A stretch of DNA of 64,000 nt from Ureibacillus massiliensis 4400831 = CIP 108448 = CCUG 49529 (GTDB lineage: Bacteria > Bacillota > Bacilli > Bacillales_A > Planococcaceae), in NCBI RefSeq assembly GCF_000772965.1, contig NZ_JPVQ01000019.1, forward strand, positions 1 through 64,000, read 5' to 3'. The position numbers were made by a program, and so were the translations under genes. Each line of letters begins with the position of its first letter. The first letter of the stretch is position 1. Positions 17,793 through 33,976 of this stretch are shown here, piece by piece. A model generated the notes under the pieces. It worked only from the letters and a program-made list of their open reading frames with translations. It was not told the DNA's origin and did not search any database.

Positions 17793-17907
17793 TTTACTGC
17801 ACCTCCTCTTAGACTCAGACTCGCCTGATATGAAAGGTGATCCAACAGATTCTTATAAACCTTTCCAGAGCGGTTGTAGCACGGGTGCTACAAACAATAA
17901 CATTAAA
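17793..17907 (-). ncRNA. L21 leader (rplU 5' UTR)
   Basis: About 110 bases of untranslated leader between the promoter and rplU. It begins with a perfect hairpin (TTGTAGCAC paired with GTGCTACAA, 17874-17893), then ACCGCTCTGG and a second region pairing around GGATCACC. The TGTAGCACCCG hairpin is like the Rfam L21 leader of Bacilli, which is thought to let L21 regulate its own operon. The assignment is from memory of that motif; a covariance search would settle it. Confidence 0.7.
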
Positions 17908-23602: not shown

Positions 23603-23743
23603 CTACATATAGCCTTTTTCTTTTAAACTAATAAATTGGTGGTCACCAATTATAATATGATCAATTAATTCTATACCAATAATATATCCTGCTTCTTGCA
23701 GCCTTTTTGTCACTTCTATATCTTCTGGGCTCGGTGTTGCAAT
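23603..23743 (-). CDS. radC: radC, 3' exon (C-terminal 46 residues)
   Basis: This stretch encodes [19 protein letters not shown] and continues to GYM-stop. It is the normal RadC C-terminus and includes the JAMM-motif Ser and Asp (Ser191 and Asp194 in the joined protein). It has no start codon or ribosome-binding site of its own. It joins in frame to the 26278-26835 exon when the group II intron is removed, giving 232 residues, the usual RadC length (B. subtilis about 231). Confidence 0.9.
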
Positions 23744-23804
23744 GTAGGGTAGGAAGCATGTGCCGTGCTATGTTTCCACAGTCGGTTTCACAATTCCCCC
23801 CTCA

Positions 23805-23838
23805 GAACCGTACGTACACCTTTCAATGTATACGGCTC
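23805..23838 (-). ncRNA. Group II intron domain V
   Basis: A 34-nt hairpin beginning GAGCCGTA and ending TACGGTTC with a GAAA tetraloop-like tip, matching the most conserved part of group II ribozymes (AGC triad near the base). The last codons of the reverse transcriptase gene, including its TGA stop at 23823-23825, are read through this element. Confidence 0.9.
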
Positions 23839-25706
23839 GCCAGTTGTTCAATCGGTATTTGTTTCTCGTGATGCTTATGGTGGCAATCATAACAGAGTAC
23901 AATGGTCTTTCTGTTTCGTTCAATCATTATACGATCTAAGTATTTAAGATTCTTTTTCTTCTTTAAATCTTTTAGTTTACGTATATGGTGTACTTCCATT
24001 TGTCCTTCTGTTTTGCCACATGCTTCACACTTATTCGCTAATAGTCGTTTTTCGAATTCTGAACGTCCAGAATACTTTAACGTATTCGGAATACGGTCTA
24101 TATCATCTTCATCTACACGAATTGCACCTTTGGTTTTTGGCATATCTTTAAGTTTTACGAAAGCATGTAAAACTTGTTCCCCTTCACTCTTTTGACGTAC
24201 CAAACAAAGTCGTCCTTGTTGATGTTTACGCATACTAGTAGCTACTTTTCTAGAAGTGCTTCTTCGTTTATTAGCAATAGTTTTTATAAAACTACTTTCT
24301 GCTAAGTAGAATAATTTATCTAGATGGTGATAATTATTTGCTAACTTATAGTAGTTCGCAATCCCACGTAATTCTGCATTATACGTCATAAGTACTTCTA
24401 ATTCAGAATTATTAATTAGACTTTTTCGATGTGTGATTTTAAAATCGTCTAAATTTCCATATCCATTTTTAATTGCAAACGCATGAATTTTACTTTGTGG
24501 AACTACTAATTTTATCGCACCTGATAAAGTACGTTTTTTCATAGGATGACTTAGATTTTTATATTGGACACGAGTTACTTTCTGTTGTTTCCATAATCTA
24601 AATTCGTATCCCAAAAACGGAACACCATTTTCAAGATGAGTAATAACCGTTTTTTCTTCGCTTAATTCTAACTGAAGCCTTTCATTAAGAAAGTCTTTTA
24701 CAACTTTTTTTATTTCTTTTGCTTCTTGTTTCGAACCAGCTATACCAATTACGAAATCATCCGCATACCGAACGTATTTCATTCGACGATAATTTTTATC
24801 CATTGGGTCAACAGCTGAAATTGTTAATTGTTTGGATTTCAATGCTTGGATTTCTTGAACATACTCACTTCGTTCCAGCCATTCTTTATGCCCATGTCTC
24901 TCATCTAATCTTTTGATTTTACGTTGTAAAGTATAGATGCGGCTACGAATGCTTTTCCATTCTGAATTTCGTTCACGGAATTTTCCTCTTTCAAATATAT
25001 TTATTTGTTCCTCCATAAATAAATCGAGTTCATTGAGATAAATATTTGCAAATAAAGGGGAAATAATCCCGCCTTGTGGTGTTCCACTAAATGTTTTTTC
25101 AAAGCGCCAATCTTCCATGACACCACATGATAAGGCATTGTGAATTAGCAATAGAAATCGTCGGTCATCTATTTTTCTAGCAATCAGATTTAAAAGAGTT
25201 TCATGATTAATGTTATCGAAGAACCCCTTAATATCTCCTTCAATACACCAAGTTAAGCCTTTCCAAGTGTTTTTAATTTCTGATAAGGCAGTATGACAAC
25301 TATAATTTGTTCTGAAACCGTGCGAATGGCTACTAAAAATAGGCTCGTATACTTGTTCCAAAATCATCCTCATCACTTCTTGTACTAATTTATCTTTAAA
25401 ATTTGGTACTCCAAGTGGGCGTTTCTTTCCATTTGATTTTGGAATGTATACACGGCGCACAGGTGAGAAACGAAATTTCCCTTCTTTTAGTTGTTCTATT
25501 AACTCGTCTATTTTTTGGGAACTAAAACCGTCTATTGTTTCTTCTGCTGTTCCTTTTGTTAAATTCCCTGCGTTTGGATACAGCTTTGCATATGCCTTAA
25601 TCCATAAATCTTTATGATATAGTAGACGATAACAATCTTTTACTTTTCGATTATTACGAGAAACATTCCTTATAACGTCTAACTGTTGAAATGGATTTTT
25701 TGCCAT
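23823..25706 (-). CDS. ltrA: Group II intron reverse transcriptase/maturase with HNH endonuclease domain
   Basis: A 627-residue intron-encoded protein. The RT domain (residues about 70-370) has VYIPKSNGKKRPLGVP, the GTPQGGIISPLFANIYLNELD block and the catalytic YADDFVIG. A maturase (X) domain follows, and the C-terminus (from about residue 570) is an HNH/En domain with CEACGKTEGQMEVHHIRK and CYDCHHKHH, i.e. two Cys pairs and the His cluster. It promotes splicing and retrohoming of its own intron. I took ATG at 25706, eight bases after AAAGGAG. An ATG six codons earlier lacks good spacing. The stop lies inside domain V. No frameshift is seen, so the element looks active. Confidence 0.95.
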   Translation of the reverse strand: MAKNPFQQLDVIRNVSRNNRKVKDCYRLLYHKDLWIKAYAKLYPNAGNLTKGTAEETIDGFSSQKIDELIEQLKEGKFRFSPVRRVYIPKSNGKKRPLGVPNFKDKLVQEVMRMILEQVYEPIFSSHSHGFRTNYSCHTALSEIKNTWKGLTWCIEGDIKGFFDNINHETLLNLIARKIDDRRFLLLIHNALSCGVMEDWRFEKTFSGTPQGGIISPLFANIYLNELDLFMEEQINIFERGKFRERNSEWKSIRSRIYTLQRKIKRLDERHGHKEWLERSEYVQEIQALKSKQLTISAVDPMDKNYRRMKYVRYADDFVIGIAGSKQEAKEIKKVVKDFLNERLQLELSEEKTVITHLENGVPFLGYEFRLWKQQKVTRVQYKNLSHPMKKRTLSGAIKLVVPQSKIHAFAIKNGYGNLDDFKITHRKSLINNSELEVLMTYNAELRGIANYYKLANNYHHLDKLFYLAESSFIKTIANKRRSTSRKVATSMRKHQQGRLCLVRQKSEGEQVLHAFVKLKDMPKTKGAIRVDEDDIDRIPNTLKYSGRSEFEKRLLANKCEACGKTEGQMEVHHIRKLKDLKKKKNLKYLDRIMIERNRKTIVLCYDCHHKHHEKQIPIEQLASRIH

Positions 25707-26277
25707 ATTCATGACTCCTTTCATTGTTAACGTTAAAACAACCTGTCCTCCTTCCCCGTGCTAAACTCATTACAAGCAAACGTTGAGTACTATGAGGACT
25801 CCGTTGCCATATGTGATTTTCAAACGTCTATACGTTATAGCCACTTGGGCACTCACACTTAGGCAATCCCTGCATTACACATAAATTCAGAAACGTGATG
25901 GTTAGGTATCCCTTTCGACAGTTTCCTTTTACAAAGGATTGAAGGATAAATCTCACTATGGACAGGAAAGCGGCAATTTCCAACAGACACTCAGGCAATA
26001 TGTCTCCCATTTTATCCTCATTACCTGTTAGCTATCGTAGGTAACGGCGCACCCATCGCTCATTTGTCTAGGATTCAGGCAGTCTAGCTTTTACCATACA
26101 TCACTTGATCTGAAGAACTGACTCGACTCTGATAGCTTTGTCGTCTTTTCTCCTTTTCACATCATGCTATGTTCCCTCTATGAGTTTCCTCGCAAGGTAA
26201 GACGCTGACCATAGAACATTGTGAGAAGTTCTAGTTTTCACTCGAAAACGCTGAATTTACGCACTTTACAGGCGCAC

Positions 26278-26835
26278 ACCACTTGGATGATTATGAGCAC
26301 AAATTATAGAAGCTGCAGAGCGTTTCACAGCTTCTCTAAAAATTTCTCTTGGATGCACAATTGATGAATTGAGACTTCCAATAAAAATGGTCTGTTTATG
26401 GATTACTTGGTTTTTTGTATTTAAAAATAAAGCGACGAAATGCTCTTGATTCAAAGAGGACATTTCTGGCATTAAGTAATTTGCAGCATCCTGAGGAGAT
26501 CGAATAGTGAAACGTGTATCTACTTGGATTTGGGCCAATCGTCTACCAAGCTCAACTGCCGCCAATAACTGTATTGCCTTTGCTTCTCCAATTCCTTTTA
26601 TTGAAGTTATTTCCTCAATGGTTGCATGCTTTAATTCATGGATTTTTTCAAAGTAATTTAATACTCGATTTGCGATCGATAAAACCGATTCTTTTTTTGT
26701 CCCAGTTCGAAGCAATATAGCAATTAATTCTTGATTTGATAAACTTTGTGCACCTTGCTTCATTAGCCGTTCCCTTGGACGATCATCTACGTGTACATCA
26801 CGCAGCATGAGCTCTGGAAATACGCTAACTACCAT
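26278..26835 (-). CDS. radC: radC, 5' exon (N-terminal 186 residues)
   Basis: Encodes RadC/JAB1-MPN residues 1-186. The N-terminal helix-hairpin-helix region holds ITSIKGIGEAKAIQL, and the last residues are AHNHPSG, the first half of the JAMM zinc motif. Reading on into the intron adds only VRL before losing homology. The joined protein restores His181-x-His183-x7-Ser191-x2-Asp194. RadC is a conserved JAMM protein of uncertain function; a DNA-repair role is disputed. It sits between maf and mreB as in B. subtilis. Without splicing the protein would lack part of its metal site. Confidence 0.93.
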
Positions 26836-28344: not shown

Positions 28345-29598
28345 CTAGTCTCCAAATATTTTACTCCGCAACTCCGTCAACAAATAAAGGGAACCTGTTA
28401 CAATTGTTTTACATTCCTTAAAATTAGCACCTTTTATAAATGCTGAAAAATCATTTATGACATATTTTTCAGTAGCATTCGACAAATTTATCATTTCTTC
28501 TGCTTTCATTGCACGACTGTTCATAAAATTAATAAAATAAAACTCATCGCTTACTGTTTCAAGAATTTTCAATACCGATTTAACATCCTTATCAGCTAAC
28601 ATTCCAATTACAAAACGTATCGGTTCATTAGGAATTTGTTGTTTTATTGTTTGTGCTAGCTTTTCTGCACTTGCAGGGTTATGAGCACCATCTAAATATA
28701 CATTTTCCATTACTTTCTCGAAACGACCGGGAACTTTTGCAGCCTTTACACCTTTTCGAATTTTTTCTTCATCCCAGTTCATTTGAAAGAATTTTGCAAC
28801 CTCTAAAAATGCAGTAATAGCTAGTGCCATATTCTCACCTTGATGTTCGCCAATAAGCGATCGTTTCAATCCACTGATTTGAATATTTCCCATACGATTT
28901 ACGTACAAATCCCCTTCGTTATGGAATTGAACATGAAACTGGTTACCTAAACGATATAATGTTGAATTTTTGTTTTCGGATTCCTGTTCGATTATTTTGT
29001 TTGCTTCTATAGGTAGCTTTCCGACAATAACTGGTCTCTCATGCTTGATAATTCCAGCTTTATGACGAGCAATACTTTCAATCGAATTCCCTAAAAATTT
29101 TGTATGTTCAAGTGCAATACTTGGAATAATCGAAACGATAGGAACTACAACATTTGTACTATCCTCTAATCCACCCATACCTGCTTCAAATAAAACTAAA
29201 TCTACTTTTTTGTTGTAAAAGTAAATTAACGCTGCACATGTTAATAACTCAAAATCAGTAAGTAAGCCACTAAGCTGTGCATCATGCATTATTTTAAATA
29301 CCTCATCCAAATCTATTTCTGCTATAGGCTTTCCATCAATTTGAATTTGGTCATGTACATCTTTGATACATGGTGAAGTAAATTTACCAACAGTTAGTCC
29401 ATGCTCCATCGATATGTTTTCAATAAATGCTAATGTGGAGCCTTTTCCGTTTGTACCTGCAATATGCACGATGTTCAATCCATTTTGAGGATTGTTTAAG
29501 TGATTTAATGCATTTTGAATTGCAGCAAGACCTGGTTTGATAGAATCATCACTTTCAACATTCCACTTTGCTTTATATTCATCTAGTTTTGGAATCAT
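28345..29598 (-). CDS. Diverged FolC paralogue (folylpolyglutamate/dihydrofolate synthase family)
   Basis: A 417-residue Mur-ligase-family protein. The P-loop GTNGKGST (residues 48-55), the carbamyl-lysine region ARHKAGIIK, LDGAHN and the C-terminal TGSLY are all present, so it should bind ATP and glutamate-type substrates. However the pterin-binding motif that reads SPHLERVNERI in its neighbour is SPCIKDVHDQI here, and GIGGRVDSTN is GMGGLEDSTN. These changes suggest altered substrate preference, perhaps only one of the two FolC activities. It lies 30 bases downstream of the canonical copy. Confidence 0.88.
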   Translation of the reverse strand: MIPKLDEYKAKWNVESDDSIKPGLAAIQNALNHLNNPQNGLNIVHIAGTNGKGSTLAFIENISMEHGLTVGKFTSPCIKDVHDQIQIDGKPIAEIDLDEVFKIMHDAQLSGLLTDFELLTCAALIYFYNKKVDLVLFEAGMGGLEDSTNVVVPIVSIIPSIALEHTKFLGNSIESIARHKAGIIKHERPVIVGKLPIEANKIIEQESENKNSTLYRLGNQFHVQFHNEGDLYVNRMGNIQISGLKRSLIGEHQGENMALAITAFLEVAKFFQMNWDEEKIRKGVKAAKVPGRFEKVMENVYLDGAHNPASAEKLAQTIKQQIPNEPIRFVIGMLADKDVKSVLKILETVSDEFYFINFMNSRAMKAEEMINLSNATEKYVINDFSAFIKGANFKECKTIVTGSLYLLTELRSKIFGD

Positions 29599-29627: not shown

Positions 29628-30902
29628 TTAAATAATTGTTTGCAAAAACTTACGAACTTCTGCAATAAAGTATAGAGACCCTGTTATCACTAGTAGCTCA
29701 TCTTCATTTAATTTATCTATTTCTCGCTCGATAAGTCCTTCCCAGTCCCCATCAACTACTATGTTTTCGCATTTCGATTGTGACGCAAGGTGCTCAGCTT
29801 TTGCGGCGCGAGGTAAAGGGATTTCTGTAAAACTAATTTTATCTGCTACTTCATCCATCATAGCTATGCTGTTTTGATGATCCTTATCCTGTAATGCTGC
29901 ATAAATAAACTTATAACGTTTATTTGGCTCAACATCATGTAAGGTACGAATTAATGCCCTTGTCCCCTCGGAGTTGTGAGCTCCATCAATAATGATTTGT
30001 TTATTCATTCTTTCAAAGCGCCCTTCCCACTTTGCTTTAGCAAGCGCCTTATAAACTGTATCCTCAGAAATAGTGGAATCAAAAAGTAAAGATGCTGTAA
30101 TAGCTAGTGCTGCATTTTCTACTTGATGTTCCCCCTCCATTGCAAGTTGAATTCCGTTTATCTCTTTTCCTTTGCATTGGTAATTAAATACCTGTGGACT
30201 TGTTTTGGAAATTGATTGTATTTGAAATTCATTTCCTAATATATATAAATCAGCCTGACAACTTTTTGCCTTTTGTTTAATGACATGAAGAGCTTCTTCG
30301 TTTTTCACACCGACAACAGCAGGAACATTCGGTTTAATAATACCTGCTTTTTCATAAGCTATTTTTTCATATGTATCTCCGAGAATTTCTGTATGCTCAA
30401 GTGAAATGGTAGTAATTATAGATACAGCTGGAGTTATCATATTCGTTGAATCGACACGACCACCGATTCCCGTTTCGATTAAAGCAACATCAACATCACT
30501 ATTAGCAAAGTGTAAAAAAGCGATCAGCATGACCACTTCAAAAAAACTAGGATATAGTCCATTAAGATGTTTTTCAATCATTTCAGCCACTTGATTAGCA
30601 TAAGTAACAAATTGTTCATCGGTAATTTGCTCATTATTGATCGTGATGCGTTCATTTACTCTTTCAAGATGGGGCGAAGTAAATGCAGCAACCTTCAAAC
30701 CATGTATCATTAATATTTCTTTTGTTGCATTAAGTGTAGAGCCCTTCCCATTTGAACCAGCATAATGAATAAATTTTACCTTTTGATGCGGATTTCCAAA
30801 TTCATTCATAATAATTCGAACTGCTTCAAGAGGCTTTCCTTTATATTTACCTGCTCTTAATTGAAATATAAAATTCGTACATTCTTCGATGGAATGGAAC
30901 AT
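29628..30902 (-). CDS. folC: Bifunctional folylpolyglutamate synthase/dihydrofolate synthase FolC
   Basis: A 424-residue ligase that adds glutamate to dihydropteroate and to folates. It has the P-loop GSNGKGST (49-56), the pterin-site SPHLERVNERI (76-86), ETGIGGRVDSTN (143-154), the active-site Lys in YEKAGIIK, IDGAHN and TGSLYF. These match the B. subtilis enzyme well. It follows valS after a terminator, the usual order in Bacilli. A second, diverged copy follows directly. Confidence 0.95.
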   Translation of the reverse strand: MFHSIEECTNFIFQLRAGKYKGKPLEAVRIIMNEFGNPHQKVKFIHYAGSNGKGSTLNATKEILMIHGLKVAAFTSPHLERVNERITINNEQITDEQFVTYANQVAEMIEKHLNGLYPSFFEVVMLIAFLHFANSDVDVALIETGIGGRVDSTNMITPAVSIITTISLEHTEILGDTYEKIAYEKAGIIKPNVPAVVGVKNEEALHVIKQKAKSCQADLYILGNEFQIQSISKTSPQVFNYQCKGKEINGIQLAMEGEHQVENAALAITASLLFDSTISEDTVYKALAKAKWEGRFERMNKQIIIDGAHNSEGTRALIRTLHDVEPNKRYKFIYAALQDKDHQNSIAMMDEVADKISFTEIPLPRAAKAEHLASQSKCENIVVDGDWEGLIEREIDKLNEDELLVITGSLYFIAEVRKFLQTII

Positions 30903-33639: not shown

Positions 33640-33976
33640 CTTATTACGATTATGATTAGAAAACAAAAATAAAAAACCCCTATCGTCAAAAAAGGACGAA
33701 GGAGTTTTATCATTTTTCCGCGGTACCACCTTTATTCTAATCAGAAAACAAAATGCACATATATCATGCGTTTTTCTGAAGTTAGCTCTCATTACGATAA
33801 CGGTGTTTAACCGACATTTTGTTACTACTATTTCACAAAAGTTGCTCTTAGGCTACGTTCAAATGGTTGCAAGCAGAAACTTTTCAGCTACCGTTTCCTC
33901 TCTAATGCATGCAAAATCATTCTACTCTTCCTATTCATTGCATCTATATTGAACTAATTTTTTGAACTGTACATAT
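33640..33976 (-). promoter_or_regulatory. T-box leader of valS
   Basis: The T-box sequence AAGGTGGTACCGCGG is at 33732-33718 on the minus strand. It is followed by a terminator hairpin (AAAACTCCTTCGTC with GACGATAGGGGTTTT, 33709-33673) and T6. Upstream lies a long stem I region. GUA (33856-33854), within GAACGTAGCC, is a candidate Val specifier codon, which fits valS. Uncharged tRNA-Val should favour the antiterminator. About 330 nt in total. Confidence 0.92.

Follow-up and report, generated by a model that had tools for sequence, protein, structure and literature searches.

A group II intron in the metal-motif codons of radC with two candidate EBS1 guides, and its intact, RT-dead and ORF-less relatives at the same site

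Introduction

The transition of group II introns from mobile elements to splicing-only residents is best known from organelles. Like the intron presented here, the group II intron that Chee and Takami reportedly described in 2005 is bacterial and lies in a DNA-repair housekeeping gene, though in another one, recA of Geobacillus kaustophilus. Here we analyse a group II intron that interrupts radC of Ureibacillus massiliensis 4400831 within a 64,000-nucleotide (nt) stretch of DNA, hereafter the window (contig NZ_JPVQ01000019.1, positions 1 to 64,000, assembly GCF_000772965.1), together with its relatives at the same site. We moderately favour the reading that this is a mobile intron homing into the HNHPSG codons of radC through two alternative guides of the exon-binding site 1 (EBS1) type, which decays to a splicing-only resident with one guide.

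For radC, we found one statement in the open-access literature, in a 2015 review: O.i.I2 of Oceanobacillus iheyensis is a group II intron in radC with a mitochondrial-like (ML) class intron-encoded protein (IEP), the only degenerate IEP known from bacteria, which lacks the YADD motif (PMC4424553). The window copy shares its host gene with O.i.I2, but has an intact reverse transcriptase (RT) and an HNH domain where the IEP of O.i.I2 is degenerate. Against that single degenerate example, we collected 27 relatives at the window site that have lost the RT motif (RT-dead), four of them without an open reading frame (ORF). The same review describes MatK in the trnKI1 intron of plant chloroplasts, an RT-dead IEP that keeps domain X inside a host-gene intron much as the RT-dead radC forms do (PMC4424553). 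The radC forms differ in being bacterial, in having intact relatives at the same site today, and in that three RT-dead forms are just 225-239 amino acids (aa) long.

Alternative EBS1 pairing has been discussed for another arrangement, in which it stems from a second intron-binding site 1 (IBS1) in the exon rather than from a pair of intron guides (PMC4238363). We found no description of two EBS1 hairpins in titles or abstract openings of the open-access literature, subscription papers lying outside the search. A group II intron in radC is already in print (PMC4424553); what is new is the graded series at one site and the two-guide pattern.

Results and discussion

An intact intron inside the RadC metal motif

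The radC gene lies on the minus strand, from 26835 down to 23603, and is split after codon 186 at the motif HNHPSG. Its 5′ exon (26278..26835, minus strand; 186 codons ending HNHPSG, identified by translation and RadC family matches) and its 3′ exon (23603..23743, minus strand; ending KEKGYM and a stop, found by family as the C-terminal part of RadC) fuse in frame when 23744..26277 is removed. The product is a 232-residue RadC with a restored JAMM metal motif, H-x-H-x7-S-x2-D, and with matches to the RadC family. An earlier interpretation made from the letters alone, here called the sequence-only reading, had placed an intron inside this motif with exons joining to 232 residues, and translation confirms it. 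In the unspliced frame, a stop follows three codons (HNHPSG-VRL and stop). No other copy of the intron and no other RadC-family gene were found in its genome (156 contigs).

The intron itself (23744..26277, minus strand) is 2,534 nt long, GTGCG...CCCTAC, with ends reading GTGCGCC...TTCCTACCCTAC, which agree with a 5′ GUGYG and a 3′ AY. A covariance search, which the sequence-only reading had proposed as a check, matched Rfam RF00029 (group II intron; 77 positions) to the last 97 nt (23744-23840) at 64.7 bits, against a gathering score of 40. The consensus fold of 11 introns with the RT motif (RT+) comprises domain I (DI, about 3-410), DII (411-476), DIII (477-534), DIV with the ORF, DV and DVI, these names being our assignment onto the fold. 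Domain V (23805..23838, minus strand, 34 nt) is seen in both RF00029 and the consensus fold, and the fold places domain VI at 23746..23802 on the minus strand, with a bulged A close to the 3′ end. The IEP (23823..25724, minus strand, 633 aa) carries an RT with YADD, an X/maturase domain and an HNH domain; it matches TIGR04416 group_II_RT_mat at 302.2 bits (cut-off 300), as well as RVT_1, Intron_maturas2 and an AI2M-like HNH. Its stop codon falls within domain V, so that the coding sequence overlaps the ribozyme core. The ends, the 34-nt domain V and the intact RT had all been read correctly from the letters. Missing domains II and III had been named as a reason to doubt splicing; that objection fails because the consensus fold shows DI through DVI, with DII and DIII both present.

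Two adjacent loops with different EBS1-like sequences

The IBS1 of the window, AGTGGT (26278..26283, minus strand), consists of the Ser-Gly codons of HNHPSG. A segment of DI at intron positions 273-313 folds into two adjacent hairpins, both on the minus strand. Hairpin b (intron 297-313; 25965..25981) bears the loop GCCGCU at 25969-25974, which complements IBS1 with an AGY serine codon and is the guide that fits the window host: GCCGCU and AGUGGU form six of six pairs, four Watson-Crick and two G-U, and the U preceding the loop is able to pair with the first 3′-exon base, A. Both pairings had been proposed in the sequence-only reading and hold up. Hairpin a (intron 273-293; 25985..26005) bears the loop GCCUGA at 25991-25996, preceded by a U as the delta base; it fits TCN-type IBS1 (UCAGGC/U) and misfits the AGTGGT of the window. 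As read from the DNA, this second, adjacent loop with a different EBS1-like sequence had been overlooked.

A delta base immediately 5′ of EBS1 is a trait of IIA introns, and the base directly 5′ of EBS1 in the window intron can pair with the first 3′-exon base. By sequence, the intron is most likely of the IIA/ML class, the pointers to ML in the IEP being profile matches only (AI2M-like HNH, Intron_maturas2). One scan gave a possible IBS2, CATCCA (26284..26289, minus strand, the His-Pro codons), and a possible EBS2, UGGGUG (intron 223-228; 26050..26055, minus strand). These make a mean of 5.0 of six pairs over 37 introns, the second-best register of the scan, and covariation gives no test of EBS2 because the exon is conserved at IBS2.

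The same site in relatives

The sequence-only reading had implied that the insertion was singular and had suggested a survey of radC in related genomes. Such a survey shows the site occupied in relatives: at least 38 complete introns, the window included, and one partial one lie at exactly this radC site in Bacillus-related genera, ranging from 552 to 2,538 nt. Together with O.i.I2, which lies in radC according to the review (PMC4424553), they refute the implied singularity, and a site unique to the window genome is rejected.

A scan of named genomes listed 80 loci (at least 117 stretches matched); among the matches listed, 31 of 80 loci, picked by eye, carry the intron, and their titles name Bacillus-related organisms. 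The 3′ exon was obtained directly at 23 of the 31 loci and later at 5 of the remaining 8; L061 was used as partial, and L080 and L113 run to contig ends. Thirteen loci from a second source were tested, 4 duplicates were dropped and 9 were added. All 25 genomes of the window's genus have a radC match, and in three of them this site holds the intron: in that of the window, in G007 (taken as Lysinibacillus endophyticus, L060) and in G023 (taken as Ureibacillus xyleni, L124). In G002 and G006 the intron matched DNA over short stretches only, and in G002 and G024 the contig ends within radC; these were counted as neither empty nor filled. By exon, the nearest relative is G015; its radC is uninterrupted and 94.6% identical over 500 nt of the 5′ exon. 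Of the 24 genomes of the genus in which the site was readable, 16 spell the serine AGY and 8 TCN. The junction pattern was detected in 5 of the 261 genomes searched from the window's order and in 17 of 397 taken from the order of G030, and three named Oceanobacillus species share the 5′ junction (L061, L072, L107).

RT+ introns average 88% identity against 64% for their host exons (intron higher in 45 of 45 pairs), and RT-dead introns 71% against 60% (168 of 210 pairs), in an ungapped exon comparison that omits 6 RT-dead loci and 1 RT+ locus whose upstream exon is short or which contain a second insertion. At the sequence level, the RT+ gap is as expected of recent spread. Bacillus sp. FJAT-22090 has two radC-like genes (L113, L080) that share this intron start and are identical over the 63 nt visible in both contigs; both contigs stop inside the intron, as near-identical repeats would cause. 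A search for plasmid or phage carriage found none: the single plasmid match spans 17% of the 520-nt query, no phage matched, and none of 24 junction-pattern matches in viral contigs was preceded by the radC motif.

Covariation of the loops with host codons

Across the family, loop a fits most TCN hosts and loop b fits AGY hosts. Within the hairpin region, 33 of 39 introns hold a 6-mer that can pair at every position with the IBS1 of their own host (in 4 of the 33, all RT+, it lies outside both loops). When IBS1 was shuffled among introns, the mean was 13.9 and the maximum 21 matches, and none of 2,000 shuffles reached 33. In an unbiased scan of 3,658 pairs of exon position and intron column, the top pair was exon −1 with the first base of the loop a 6-mer, and the third was exon −4 with its fourth base; loop b columns were within the top 25. 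Exon −1 is the wobble position of the Gly codon and exon −4 that of the Ser codon. The best-matching 6-mer is preceded by T in all 4 introns with A as the first 3′-exon base; among the 34 with G there, 28 have C before the 6-mer, 5 have T and 1 has G (T versus not-T against the first 3′-exon base, Fisher 0.0017).

Two exact guide-like sites were found in 9 of 12 RT+ introns and in 0 of 27 RT-dead ones (Fisher 1e-6, kinship ignored); chance gave two exact sites in 528 of 24,000 shuffled RT+ regions (2.2%). Guide types are swapped between the loops of L181, and L072, L210 and L211 hold two different TCN types. RT-dead introns match their own IBS1 fully in 26 of 27 cases: the AGY guide is retained in 4 of 4 AGY hosts, and the match is full in 22 of 23 TCN hosts. 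Read by eye, loop b (GCCGCU) is absent or eroded in most RT-dead introns of TCN hosts, where loop a fits, and loop b as the EBS1 of the whole family was rejected.

One of the two loops could instead be EBS2 or another tertiary contact, its radC-like complement being coincidental. In IIA introns, EBS1 and EBS2 lie in adjacent stem-loops of DI; the candidate EBS2 UGGGUG is weak, and the folding energy of the region is unremarkable. In the unbiased scan, however, loop a covaries with the third positions of the Ser and Gly codons, and related introns at other sites, read by eye, carry a complement of their own IBS1 in the same places: at the loop-a place in introns at a second radC site and in addA (GAAGT with ACTTC; AAGTATC with GATACTT; mismatches in some rows), and at the loop-b place in a pcrA-type intron. 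We regard a tertiary contact as improbable.

A single-guide intron is a more serious alternative, possible though on the whole doubtful: only the host-fitting loop would work, the other being a vestige of a former host after recent insertion, and guides would switch without two ever acting at once. The apparent recent spread of RT+ introns would suit this, as would the several RT+ introns with only 5 of 6 loop pairs to their host and the RT-dead introns without an idle site. It sits less well with the two exact radC-type spellings still held by most RT+ introns and with the idle loops retained in individual hosts, AGY-type in TCN hosts (L091, L061, L218, L175) and TCN-type in AGY hosts (the window, L174). 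The delta base fits 4 of these 6 idle loops, misfits in L175 and is unreadable in the partial L061.

Several observations weigh against two alternative guides in a mobile intron. The second-best pair of the covariation scan (exon +4 with intron 444) is unexplained, and the folding energy of the hairpin region is no better than that of shuffles (z 0.07). Under a looser rule allowing one G-U, at least two sites occur in 12 of 12 RT+ and 5 of 27 RT-dead introns, and in 31% of shuffled RT+ regions. Six of six pairing to their own IBS1 is found in only 7 of 12 RT+ introns, of which 4 need two or three G-U pairs outside the loops, leaving loop matches in 3 of 12 (window, L091, L180). On the intron tree, in which 6 of 35 inner branches are well supported, RT status must have changed at least 6 times. 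The independent pairs that differ in RT status number 2 with good branch support and 6 if every branch is used, and with so few pairs the sign test (p 0.5 or more) cannot reach significance. Judged on that tree, the link between two guides and RT is confounded by ancestry and is not significant beyond it. Finally, L047 (G. dipsosauri) and L062 (R. korlensis) keep the intron with no radC 5′ part found in about 10 kb and 5.6 kb upstream, respectively, and their host genes look truncated.

These two relatives also qualify the statement in the sequence-only reading that RadC production depends on splicing. The anatomy supports it for the window, because an in-frame stop follows VRL, and the intron would accordingly be spliced in vivo; strict dependence does not extend to L047 and L062. 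For the family, splicing is supported because EBS1-IBS1 pairing in RT-dead introns fits the host's own codons in 26 of 27 cases and RT-dead frames are under purifying selection in five pairs. A splicing-defective insertion that left radC of the window a pseudogene would agree with the two truncated relatives and with RadC being non-essential in model bacteria. All domains are nevertheless present, the exons are intact and in frame, and even the four ORF-less introns have guides that match the codons of their hosts, making a pseudogene highly improbable.

From intact element to ORF-less intron

We scored introns as RT+ when the longest frame held the motif Y[AS]DD (the frames of L174, L180 and L181 are shortened, and L061 is the partial intron). 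By this definition the RT active-site motif is kept in 12 of 39 introns, eight of which have frames of 632-645 codons, and intact elements are about 2,535 nt long. In the tree, the window clusters with L175, L013 and L014 at 100/100. Among the 27 RT-dead introns, 23 retain frames 234-543 codons long, and in four no frame reaches 65 codons: L093 (552 nt), L082 (705 nt), L216 (877 nt) and L079 (1,067 nt). Aligned with the window intron, these four cover DI, DIII and DV almost completely. Three of them have a shortened DII, and L093 has a shortened DIV and DVI as well.

The RT motifs of RT-dead proteins are decayed, and the X motif is recognisable in most. Pfam detected Intron_maturas2 in 8 of 10 RT-dead proteins and RVT_1 above the cut-off in none (L013 matches RVT_1 below the cut-off; L055 and L219 match neither family). 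A predicted structure of the 228-aa RT-dead protein of Halolactibacillus miurensis (mean pLDDT 80, 8 aligned sequences) had group II intron RTs as its first three Protein Data Bank (PDB) rows, 8h2h, 8fli and 6me0, with TM-scores by query length of 0.55, 0.44 and 0.43 and E below 0.001 for 8h2h and 8fli. The ratio of nonsynonymous to synonymous substitution rates (dN/dS) was 0.27-0.50 in five RT-dead pairs and 0.04-0.11 in five RT+ pairs, with dS above 1 in several. By this comparison, the RT-dead frames compared are under purifying selection.

We suggest that the intron homes to the codons of the RadC metal motif and would leave the radC mRNA by splicing with the help of its own maturase. It would read the Ser-Gly codons of its target through EBS1, the first 3′-exon base through delta and probably the His-Pro codons through EBS2. 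With its alternative EBS1 hairpins, loop a for TCN serine and loop b for AGY serine, one intron could use radC of either serine spelling; in the window host, loop b fits and loop a would be idle. After insertion, some lineages may lose the RT and HNH and mostly keep the maturase, while the idle guide is lost and the remaining one is tuned to the host; in some cases the ORF would be lost altogether. This order of losses along the series is our inference.

Introns in other repair genes

ORF-less bacterial group II introns are called rare in the review, which gives C.te.I1 of Clostridium tetani as such an intron in a genome without an IEP-related gene (PMC4424553). L079, L082, L093 and L216 resemble C.te.I1 in lacking an ORF and differ in that each of their genomes has a PF01348 protein, encoded in another intron. 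Its host gene is addA in G661 (YGAH for YADD) and G405 (YADS), a UvrD/PcrA-type helicase gene in G663 (YADQ; a further one with YADD lies at the second site of radC) and recA in G662 (no YADD), the gene names being taken from translations and PF01348 being blind to other intron classes. These RT-altered maturase introns in addA, the helicase gene and recA lie at about 932-3090 of L233, 1077-3320 of L234, 1023-3280 of L235 and 2186-3950 of L236. From these sequences, a shared maturase for ORF-less radC introns is possible. On a wider view, to which we give about even weight, the intron may be a naturally bispecific retroelement whose two interchangeable EBS1 guides home to a protein motif, the idle guide being kept only while the element is mobile, and where the radC intron of a host has lost its ORF, several introns there may share a single RT-dead maturase encoded in an intron of another repair gene.

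A second group II intron in radC follows HPREV in L067, L079, L082, L179 and L180, a 63-nt exon separating both introns, and the HPREV junction pattern occurs in 10 of 397 genomes. Both radC introns are ORF-less in Gracilibacillus bin30 (L082 5300-6800), at 705 and 724 nt. A domain V match just upstream of the radC intron of G405 suggests a second radC intron there too, and three more group II domain V matches cluster on its contig C1 (310514-314155), in a genome with one PF01348 match. The window genome likewise has one PF01348 match; its other RF00029 matches were set aside, the two regions opened (L238, L239) adjoining RT genes of apparently other intron types. Elsewhere in the window we noted a tandem pair of folC-like frames (28345-29598 and 29628-30902) and a T-box leader (33689-33947) upstream of a valS-like frame, both gene names being read by eye, and an L21 leader (17807-17885, Rfam).

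Conclusions

At a single insertion site, this family spans from an intact retroelement to a 552-nt ORF-less intron, with many of its members in named strains. The steps of decay are open to experiment because intact and RT-dead copies occur in the same genus. If the two guides are true, they would show how an element that recognises its target by base pairing copes with synonymous variation in that target, and may offer a design idea for gene targeting with group II introns.

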